Below, piece by piece: positions 14,736 through 18,532 of a stretch of DNA of 64,000 nucleotides (position 1 is its first letter; each line of letters opens with the position of its first letter). The notes beneath the pieces are model-generated. The model was not told the origin of the DNA. It ran no database searches and saw only the letters and a list, made by a program, of their open reading frames with translations. The position numbers and the translations under genes were made by a program. Origin of the DNA: Bacilli bacterium (lineage in GTDB: Bacteria; Bacillota_I; Bacilli_A; RF39; UBA660); contig JAFSEY010000010.1 of assembly GCA_017435485.1 (NCBI GenBank), positions 62,001 through 126,000 on the forward strand, in the 5' to 3' direction.

Positions 14736-16697
14736 TTAAGGTATGTAAGTAACAGTAGCATTTCCGCTCCAATTTAATGGATCTTCAAATGTTATCGCAT
14801 CTTGAGCTTTATTTATTGTTATTGTACTACCAGAAGTCATACTATGAAATGAATATCGTCCGATAAACTCAATAGAGCTTGGAATAGTAATATCTTTTAT
14901 TAAAGAATTCCCATGAAATGCTTCTGTTTCAATTCTTTGTAATTGACTAGGGTTTGTTGTAGTATCTTCGAACACAACTTTTTGTAAGTTTTTAACTTCT
15001 TTAAAAGCACGATCTTTTATTATAGTTACACTTGCTGGAATGTTAATATTTTTTATGTTTGCTTGATAGAATGTCACTCTAGGGATCTCAGTTATACCAT
15101 TACCTAAGTTTAATGTTTCAATACTATTAGCGCTATTTAGACCTGTATAGTTTAAATCTACACTTCCCGGTACATTTACGGTACCTAAAGTAGAATTACC
15201 AAATGGAGTTACCCCATCTTTTTGAAAAATTGCAGTTATTCCTTCATGAATATTTAAAGTTTCTACATTAATTCCTTGAAAAACACTATCAGTGACTAAA
15301 TAATTTGTTTCAGTTAATTCTAAAGTCTCATACCCTATGGCAGTATCTTCAACCGTTGGGATAATATTTAACTGTTTTATCGTTGAGTTTCCAAATGGTT
15401 TATCCCAATTAATATCATCATCTCCAAAATCCGTTGAATTATATTTTGTAATATATGTAGAATATAAAGTCAAATTATCTAATTCAGTATTAGCAAATGA
15501 ATTATGCCCGAATATTATTTCTTTGTTATTATTACCAAAATTTAATTGTGTTAACCCAGTTTCATAATTTTCATATTCCGTTAAATCTGTTACATTTGCA
15601 GGAACATTACTAAATGCACTGGTTTCAATTGTTTCTAAATATATCGTTTGGCTTAAATCTAACTCTGAAATGGAAATCTTTGCTTGCGATGTTATTAATG
15701 CAGATTCATCAAACGAAGAGGCAATATCACAAACTGGTTGATTATCTACTAGATTGCAATATTGAAATTGATGATTATCATCTATAACTATATTATTATT
15801 ATACACATCAATAGCTATGTCGCTGTATCCGTTTTCATTAGCCCATTGTCTTATATTTGCTTCTTCTGTTGGATCTATAACAAGTGTATTTTGGATATTC
15901 CACGAAGAATCAAAGACATTAACAAAACTATAATTATATACTGCACTTTCAACTTTAAAAGCATTTGAATCAATTGTTTTAACTTCATCTCCATTTATTC
16001 TAGCCGGGATTACAACATTAGTTCCGCAACTAGCATTATATCCGATGATTTCACCTTTTCCTTCTTCATCTAATGTAAAGCATGATGCCTCTGTTGGTTG
16101 TGGTTTAGGATTTTGGATCCCTTGTCCTCCGGTTATCATTACTCTACTTTTAAATGTTCTATTTTGTTGATTTAATGGAGCTTCTTCTGCTAACCATAGT
16201 CTTATTTTATGAGTATTCATTTTATTAGCTGTTACTGTGGCTGTTGTTACTTCTTTCGTTTCTCTTATTGTTTCTGTATCATTTTCTAATATTATATTAT
16301 CGATCGTCGTTAAACCTTCATAATTTGATATTTGTTCATCATCTATTACTAATTTAACATACTGATTATCTAAATAAGTTGCTCCTTCTACTTCTAATGA
16401 CTCTAAACCGATTACATAGTTTACATCAAACGGGCATTTATTTTCTACTGTAAATGTGTATCCCTCTAAATTTCTTCCTTCTTCATCGCTTATTGGCCAC
16501 GCATCTCCTAATGTTATTCCTGTATTTTCTTCATCAGCATTTGCTAATTCTAAGTTTAAACATGCTGATACCATTTCATTAGGGTTTTTCTGTTTTCTAG
16601 TTAATTGCCAATATGCATATGATGACATTATGACAAATAAACTAATTAATATACCTCCCCCAGCTATTATTAATGGCGTTAGTTTCTTTTTGTTCAT
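14736..16697 (-). CDS. Secreted protein: TasA/camelysin-like domain plus BspA-type leucine-rich repeats (paralogue of 3228)
   Basis: A 653-residue exported protein with the same plan as the one at 3228. The signal/anchor segment ends SSYAYW; the TasA-like domain has VSACLNLEL, DAWPISDEEG and YTFTVENKC with the same two cysteines. Then comes CFTLDEE...NASCGTNVVIPARI, matching the paralogue's linker, and BspA-type repeats to the end (for example IPSSIEFIGRYSF). A threonine-rich loop sits near residue 140. There is no sorting motif. A strong promoter (16725-16753), AAGGAG site and terminator make it a single-gene unit. Confidence 0.73.
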   Translation of the reverse strand: MNKKKLTPLIIAGGGILISLFVIMSSYAYWQLTRKQKNPNEMVSACLNLELANADEENTGITLGDAWPISDEEGRNLEGYTFTVENKCPFDVNYVIGLESLEVEGATYLDNQYVKLVIDDEQISNYEGLTTIDNIILENDTETIRETKEVTTATVTANKMNTHKIRLWLAEEAPLNQQNRTFKSRVMITGGQGIQNPKPQPTEASCFTLDEEGKGEIIGYNASCGTNVVIPARINGDEVKTIDSNAFKVESAVYNYSFVNVFDSSWNIQNTLVIDPTEEANIRQWANENGYSDIAIDVYNNNIVIDDNHQFQYCNLVDNQPVCDIASSFDESALITSQAKISISELDLSQTIYLETIETSAFSNVPANVTDLTEYENYETGLTQLNFGNNNKEIIFGHNSFANTELDNLTLYSTYITKYNSTDFGDDDINWDKPFGNSTIKQLNIIPTVEDTAIGYETLELTETNYLVTDSVFQGINVETLNIHEGITAIFQKDGVTPFGNSTLGTVNVPGSVDLNYTGLNSANSIETLNLGNGITEIPRVTFYQANIKNINIPASVTIIKDRAFKEVKNLQKVVFEDTTTNPSQLQRIETEAFHGNSLIKDITIPSSIEFIGRYSFHSMTSGSTITINKAQDAITFEDPLNWSGNATVTYIP

Positions 16698-16772: not shown

Positions 16773-16803
16773 ACAAAAAAAGGTAAGTTGAAAACTTACC
16801 TTT
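16773..16803 (-). terminator. Terminator of the transporter gene at 16817
   Basis: Minus strand: 11-bp perfect stem (arms 16793-16803 and 16779-16789) with a 3-nt loop and a run of Ts. One of the strongest terminators in the window. Confidence 0.85.
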
Positions 16804-16816
16804 AAATGCTTAAGGT

Positions 16817-18532
16817 TTATAAATAAAACAATAATAAATAAACAGCTAATAAGCATACTAACATTCCTATTAAGAATTTCCAAATATATTTTATCCAGTT
16901 CTTGTATTCAACGTTTGTGTAAGTTAATCCAATAATTAAAATAGCACTTGTTGGTACAATTATTTGTGTAAATCCATACATAGTTAGGAAGATTATAAAT
17001 AATAAGCTTAAGTTAGTTCCAAATCCAGTAACCATATAACTAGCTAATGAATAAGCCGTATAGTTTAAATCTAAATGAAAGACACTTGAAACAAATGACG
17101 CTAATACTGCTCCAGCAATACTGAAATCAGTATCAATATTGATATCAGGAATCCCATCTCCATCTACATCTAAATTAGTTGTTGATTCTCCTGTAAATGA
17201 ATCCATTACATTTTCATCATTTTCATCTACTTTTCCATTGCCATCGAAGTCTAGATTTTTATCTGGATATCCATCATTGTTTGTATCACAATTTACTTTG
17301 CAATTATTTCCAGTGTTAACTAAATTTTTATCAGCTTTTCCATCCTCATTTGTATCAATATTAAAGTAAGCTATTCCACTTCCATTATAATCGATATTAA
17401 CATTTGGTTTTCCATCAACTGGCATTAAATTACTTACAATTGTATTCATCATTGGCGATAAATAAAATACTGTAAATATTGTATAAGCTACTGATAACAC
17501 TAATATTGGTTTACTGATTCTTTTAATTCCTTCAATTATACTTGAAATTATTTTTCCAAAATCAAAGCGAGACATAATGGCTATTATTAACCCAAAGAAT
17601 AGTAACACCGAAATCATAGTAAATAAGCTAAAATCAGTAGAACCTAAAGCCGCAGCGCTACTTCCTAAAATATAGGAGAATATTGTTGCATCTTTACCGA
17701 TTGTTAACTCTGTTAACCAAGTATGAAATTTATCAAAAATTTCAATTCCAAAACTTTCATTCCATCTAATAAATCCTAAAATTGTAAATAAAGCTACAAT
17801 AGATAAGATTATAATCATTGGCCAAGTTCTAACTTTTCCTTTTACTTCACTTACTTCATAAACATCTTCAATCACTTCATTGTTTTTAGATTTCAATGTT
17901 TTTTTCATGTGAGTTATCGTAAAGAAATTAAATAATACAATTCCTACAACTAAGATGATGATACGATAGATTATTCCATCTTTCATAAAATCAACAGCAG
18001 CATTACTAGATAAATAGTAATTTAACCAATATAACCCTTCAGTTCCTACTGTAGCACCTATCATACCAATTAGAATTGAACCGAATGTTGAAACTAGCGC
18101 AGTTAATTTATCTAATTTCATACTTGACAAAATATTAATTATAAATGGCACAAATATTAAACTAGCATAAACGGATGAACTAATTGAAGTAAATACTGTT
18201 AAAAACAATGATATTAAAACAGTAAATAGTATTTCCTTTCCTTTTAATTTCTTAGATATTGTTGTTACTATTTTTTGATATGCTGGAATTTTAGTTAATA
18301 GTCCATAAAATGCTCCCAAAGATAATAAGAATAAAATCTTATCTATAGCCATAGCGATAACATAATATAGCATATTTCCTACATCAGCGATACCAATTCT
18401 TAATATGTCTTGACTAACAAATTCAGAACCATTAAAACTTCCAACTGGAATAACCCAAGAAAGAATCAGTGCTAATACTAACAAAATACTAAGTATTTTT
18501 CCTAAACTATGTTTTTCCCAAAACTTTTTCAT
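16817..18532 (-). CDS. YfcC/DcuC-family membrane transporter with an inserted calcium-binding-like loop
   Basis: A 571-residue polytopic membrane protein. The N-terminal SWVIPVGSF is typical of the YfcC/C4-dicarboxylate-uptake C group, and about ten spans can be drawn. At residues ~370-472 (DNA ~17110-17425), between two late spans, lies a hydrophilic insert with four Asp/Asn-rich repeats: DTNEDGKADKN, DTNNDGYPDKN, DFDGNGKVDEND and DVDGDGIPDIN. These look like EF-hand or thrombospondin-3 type calcium loops. Two close cysteines (NCKVNC) also lie there. I know no transporter of this family with such a loop. The substrate is unknown. Confidence 0.68.
   Translation of the reverse strand: MKKFWEKHSLGKILSILLVLALILSWVIPVGSFNGSEFVSQDILRIGIADVGNMLYYVIAMAIDKILFLLSLGAFYGLLTKIPAYQKIVTTISKKLKGKEILFTVLISLFLTVFTSISSSVYASLIFVPFIINILSSMKLDKLTALVSTFGSILIGMIGATVGTEGLYWLNYYLSSNAAVDFMKDGIIYRIIILVVGIVLFNFFTITHMKKTLKSKNNEVIEDVYEVSEVKGKVRTWPMIIILSIVALFTILGFIRWNESFGIEIFDKFHTWLTELTIGKDATIFSYILGSSAAALGSTDFSLFTMISVLLFFGLIIAIMSRFDFGKIISSIIEGIKRISKPILVLSVAYTIFTVFYLSPMMNTIVSNLMPVDGKPNVNIDYNGSGIAYFNIDTNEDGKADKNLVNTGNNCKVNCDTNNDGYPDKNLDFDGNGKVDENDENVMDSFTGESTTNLDVDGDGIPDINIDTDFSIAGAVLASFVSSVFHLDLNYTAYSLASYMVTGFGTNLSLLFIIFLTMYGFTQIIVPTSAILIIGLTYTNVEYKNWIKYIWKFLIGMLVCLLAVYLLLFYL

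Follow-up and report, generated by a model that had tools for sequence, protein, structure and literature searches.

Analysis of a 64,000-nucleotide stretch of DNA (hereafter the window) from a Bacilli bacterium confirmed that one of its transporters carries a genuine insertion, restricted to one clade, of an acidic module rich in calcium-type loops. In the explanation that we favour, with about even chances of being right, an outer domain was captured once and, ordered by calcium, stabilises or tunes an elevator transporter that most likely imports a basic amino acid such as lysine. The insert is a surface-protein module that turns up inside a membrane transporter. The window belongs to a genome of 1.09 Mb in 14 contigs, whose named close relatives are metagenome assemblies of uncultured Bacilli or Mollicutes, for several of them from animal gut.

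The transporter gene lies at positions 16817 to 18532 on the minus strand, as an intact reading frame of 571 amino acids with an ATG start. Directly past its stop codon is an intrinsic terminator (16779 to 16803, minus strand) with an 11-pair stem and a T-rich tail. A sequence-only reading had called the product a YfcC/DcuC-type transporter, and the curated Pfam model PF03606 (DcuC) bore this out with 47.4 bits against a cut-off of 23.1. The equivalog model of the E. coli basic amino acid antiporter YfcC (NF008611) reached 32 bits against a cut-off of 500. The AlphaFold2 model, built from 48 input sequences (pLDDT 85, pTM 0.86), has inverted repeats and two re-entrant hairpins, and its best Foldseek matches were the AbgT protein YdaH (4r0c, E 1.3e-5) and VcINDY (6ol0, E 5.4e-5), with significant E-values and modest TM-scores of 0.31 to 0.49. 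A solved-structure search with the full transporter protein gave no match. The product is a DcuC/YfcC-like secondary transporter of the ion-transporter (elevator) superfamily. It shares core sequence and the two-hairpin inverted-repeat architecture with DcuC/YfcC, YdaH and VcINDY, but differs from them in about 100 additional residues ahead of the outer hairpin.

Alignment to homologues lacking the loop set the limits of the insert at about residues 371 to 470 (17123 to 17422, minus strand), with the flanks aligned on both sides. One prominent feature was the set of four loops that fit the strict motif D-x-[ND]-x-[DN]-G-x-x-[DN], all of the transporter's strict loops being within the insert and on the minus strand: DTNEDGKAD at residues 393 to 401 (17330 to 17356), DTNNDGYPD at 416 to 424 (17261 to 17287), DFDGNGKVDEND at 428 to 439 (17216 to 17251) and DVDGDGIPD at 455 to 463 (17144 to 17170). 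In 20,000 shuffles of the insert four loops were never reached (mean 0.09), which rules out chance clustering. A cysteine pair, C411-x3-C415 (CKVNC, 17288 to 17302, minus strand), directly precedes the second motif and perhaps closes a disulfide. The sequence-only reading had placed about 100 inserted residues at roughly 17110 to 17425, with four D-x-N/D-x-D-G-x-x-D loops and two close cysteines; its limits are close to those of the alignment, and the loops and cysteines are confirmed.

The insert was located between a scaffold helix (338 to 358, followed by a short helix at 362 to 369; 17426 to 17521, minus strand) and a re-entrant hairpin (472 to 485/489 to 503; 17024 to 17119, minus strand) in the AlphaFold2 secondary structure. 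The earlier description, between late membrane spans, is made more exact by this site. The hairpin directly past the insert, the outer one by topology, carries a conserved F-H-x-D-L-x-Y-T-x-Y stretch. In VcINDY, a scaffold domain, a transport domain and two hairpins have been described, and the hairpins move with the transport domain, to which they belong, and help to form the substrate site (PMC7939474). By fold analogy, the hairpin here would have the same role.

Which side of the membrane the insert faces was assessed by the positive-inside rule. Per residue, Lys and Arg numbered 0.24 on the inner side and 0.04 on the outer side, and the insert falls outside in each of the 48 aligned rows. 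The analyst set the membrane sides from the helix order when the K/R-rich loops in the window protein were already known, so the other 47 rows are the fairer test. Together with the AlphaFold model, the topology predicts that the insert faces the outside of the cell, and a cytosolic loop, which would have spoken against the sequence-only reading, is ruled out by the 48 rows.

The insert is absent from 41 of the 48 aligned homologues, in which the alignment breaks off and restarts on either side of a clean insertion. The loop is thus not a normal feature of the family, the other possibility that the sequence-only reading had left to a comparison of homologues. Among 98 genomes of relatives, the full-length loop-bearing transporter was found only in the genus of the window, and the homologues of other genera were mostly 460 to 500 amino acids long. 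Four loop-less homologues (G057, G014, G029 and G051) have 550 to 575 codons, with an apparent expansion, judged by match positions, in a cytosolic linker near residue 225. A search of 386 genomes of the family with the insert alone revealed transporter-type matches in at least eight genomes, which belong to three genera (g1, g108 and g126); orthologues in all three have the insert at the identical site. These were identified by reading the open reading frames, and all other inspected matches were repeat proteins; eight is a minimum because not every lower-scoring match was opened. A tree of the 48 transporters from insert-free columns grouped the seven loop-bearing ones (SH-aLRT 94) and needed one change. 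A single gain, at the base of a small gut clade of Bacilli and Mollicutes, is favoured by these sequences rather than proven, since this was a quick tree made without bootstraps and with an arbitrary root. Neither a viral-contig scan nor a plasmid search found a relative of the module, which speaks against phage or plasmid carriage, and a defence system is ruled out by the lack of any PADLOC match.

We then compared the conservation of the insert with that of the transporter core. Between the window protein and the four orthologues L080 to L083, identity was 54 to 63% in the insert against 40 to 48% in the core, and was higher in the insert in every case (63 against 42% for L081, 61 against 40% for L083). 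In each pair, dN was lower than dS for all regions, many of the dS values being above 1 and saturated; in the closest pair, the window protein and L079, dN was 0.08 in every region and the dS of the insert 0.92. Among loop-bearing orthologues the ligand-type Asp/Asn and the Gly of the loops, as well as both cysteines, are invariant. Part of this conservation could reflect biased composition. These values bear on whether the insert is a passive decoration that the transporter tolerates and that has no role in transport. The core works without the loop, because loop-less homologues form nearly the whole family, and those relatives presumably transport without it. Retention across three genera, an insert that diverges less between genera than the core does, and a dN below dS all argue against mere tolerance, and we regard a passive insert as very unlikely. 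The place, conservation and composition of the insert are best accounted for by a cap at the link between scaffold and hairpin that is ordered by calcium and stabilises or tunes transport.

The other matches to the insert led to a group of apparently exported repeat proteins of the same bacterial family. A profile comparison (hhalign) of the insert with their module gave a probability of 99.9 and an E-value of 1.3e-34 over 82 columns with 54% identity; the E-value is inflated by biased composition, and since the compared modules were picked from matches to the insert, the result describes common features and is not an independent discovery. The order of the conserved features agrees, NIDY, FNID, C-x3-C and DG[WYH]P[DE] following one another in both; the cysteine pair is also present in the surface-protein modules, and the last element corresponds to the second motif. 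The insert thus belongs to this module by profile and by feature order. In some form the module is present in 80 of the 386 family genomes. The surface proteins, about 320 to nearly 1,500 codons long, often carry it repeated in tandem after a single membrane segment towards the N-terminus, whereas the transporter has a single copy in an extracellular loop, longer by about 15 residues and with a stretch like an EF-hand. A solved-structure search with the surface module gave one chance sybody match only.

Export of the repeat proteins is apparently of the SipW type, and their C-terminal domain appears TasA/CalY-like by eye; both are readings of the sequences, since the curated TasA/CalY models gave no match. 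A signal peptidase of the SipW/archaeal type, above the TIGR02228 cut-off, adjoins one repeat-protein gene (L145). The window genome has its own repeat protein of 440 amino acids (L033:2587-3909, on contig C13 of G000), upstream of which are two short exported-looking proteins with a TasA/CalY-type likeness by eye. In another repeat protein (L039:2248-4290) most units are Cys-rich, DDGSFGGxxxDGxCDRNC, where its relatives have NID-DGDGKPD units. Further families of the class also have related DGDGKPD tandem repeats, and one protein among these (L140:1-1941) is a long tandem DGDGKPD-NID repeat protein that ends in a membrane-anchor-like tail.

Kinship with surface proteins raises the alternative that the insert is a binding or docking domain, tethering the transporter to exported repeat proteins, cell-surface polymers, or host or food material. 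The tandem occurrence of the module in surface-type proteins of this family with an N-terminal membrane anchor, one of them in the window genome, is in keeping with this, as are matches of the latter protein, below the NCBIfam cut-offs, to adhesin Sdr/Clf repeat regions. However, genus g126 (four genomes, 83 to 93% complete) keeps the loop-bearing transporter with no repeat protein detected, so required homotypic pairing with repeat proteins is weakened and seems unlikely. Nor was a cohesin found in any of eight carrier genomes by a search whose control was positive, and the dockerin model stayed below its cut-off. Dockerin-cohesin docking is ruled out on these grounds, as dockerin-like docking would here be without a known partner. 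We consider a tethering role of any kind unlikely.

The sequence-only reading, whose interpretation is borne out in part, had also likened the loops to EF-hand, dockerin or thrombospondin-3 motifs, and membership in these domains did not hold up: none of the curated calcium-domain models scored over its cut-off with the transporter protein. The dockerin type I Pfam model, which comprises two 22-residue calcium repeats, reached 9.6 bits against a cut-off of 22.9. No Pfam EF-hand match was obtained; only one of the four loops, the third, has the 12-residue length of EF-hand and dockerin loops, and the short helix predicted after it (437 to 444) is in a low-confidence region. No thrombospondin type 3 family was listed among Pfam matches up to E 10. 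Dockerin, EF-hand, thrombospondin type 3 and FG-GAP calcium loops have in common with the insert the D-x-[ND]-x-[DN]-G-x-x-D loop, but differ in repeat order and in the C-x3-C pair. The best solved-structure match of the insert was weak, a dockerin (2jnk/2ozn) at E 0.18. With a metal-free predictor, the insert had a pLDDT mostly of 46 to 63 in the full model and a mean of 43 when folded alone. Given the curated domains below cut-off, the E-value of 0.18 and the low-confidence model, we infer calcium binding, strongly, from the loops themselves rather than report it as a result.

In the explanation that we favour, a calcium-loop module like those in the surface proteins would have entered, in a single event, the short extracellular link from the last scaffold helix to the outer re-entrant hairpin, in the ancestor of the small clade of gut Bacilli and Mollicutes. 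There it probably folds around several Ca2+ ions into a compact cap, which the C-x3-C pair may close as a disulfide. The insert links the scaffold, which stays fixed, to the transport domain, which moves; binding of Ca2+ would therefore most likely make the outer face more stable, and it may also tune transport. The uptake of nutrients might respond to calcium outside the cell, since the outer insert looks calcium-binding and matches the repeats of exported surface proteins. The stronger proposal, that extracellular Ca2+ directly switches or brakes uptake and that a captured piece of a surface protein has produced a calcium-gated amino acid importer, seems doubtful to us. Where scaffold and transport domain meet, a conserved module of calcium loops outside the cell would make gating of an elevator protein by environmental Ca2+ testable, and the close loop-less relatives are natural controls.

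Calcium-regulated solute carriers are, to our knowledge, known only from mitochondria. The mitochondrial aralar/citrin and ATP-Mg/Pi carriers are regulated by Ca2+ (PMC6283063, PMC4250520). They resemble the transporter in principle, a calcium-binding domain being joined to a solute transporter, but they have an unrelated fold and an N-terminal EF-hand domain, in contrast to an insertion within a loop of a bacterial elevator-type protein, for which regulation by calcium is a proposal. In the part of the literature that was searched, no bacterial transporter with a comparable insert was found.

Clues to the substrate came from the gene neighbourhood. The lysS gene precedes the transporter in the same orientation at 36 of 49 loci, with a gap mostly within about 160 bases and in a few cases above 1.4 kb. 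The linkage is missing in the genus pair of the window, whose transporter is not beside lysS. Six carrier genomes, two of them less than 90% complete, contained no dapA, no lysA-type decarboxylase and no arginine deiminase, the last of which rules out arginine-ornithine exchange via the deiminase pathway. Import of a basic amino acid such as lysine is plausible, because lysS is upstream at most loci and dapA and lysA were not found; lysS synteny alone is no proof of the substrate. A cationic substrate, to which this linkage and the missing lysine synthesis point, would also suit an insert that serves as an electrostatic antenna, its negative charge concentrating lysine at the outer mouth and calcium being secondary. 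The insert has 23 to 29 acidic and 6 to 11 basic residues. Charge alone, however, does not account for the conserved loop spacing, glycines and cysteine positions, and bound Ca2+ would cancel much of it, which leaves the antenna quite unlikely in our judgement.

Other genes recur around the transporter. A Clp-ATPase-like gene is often downstream, and L081:1352-2902 is an example of the upstream lysS. In the window, the neighbour at 14736 to 16697 (minus strand) encodes a protein of 653 amino acids with BspA-type leucine-rich repeats (PF13306, 66 bits), the N-terminal stretch of which resembles a SipW-type exported beta domain. Genes similar to it adjoin the transporter in several relatives.
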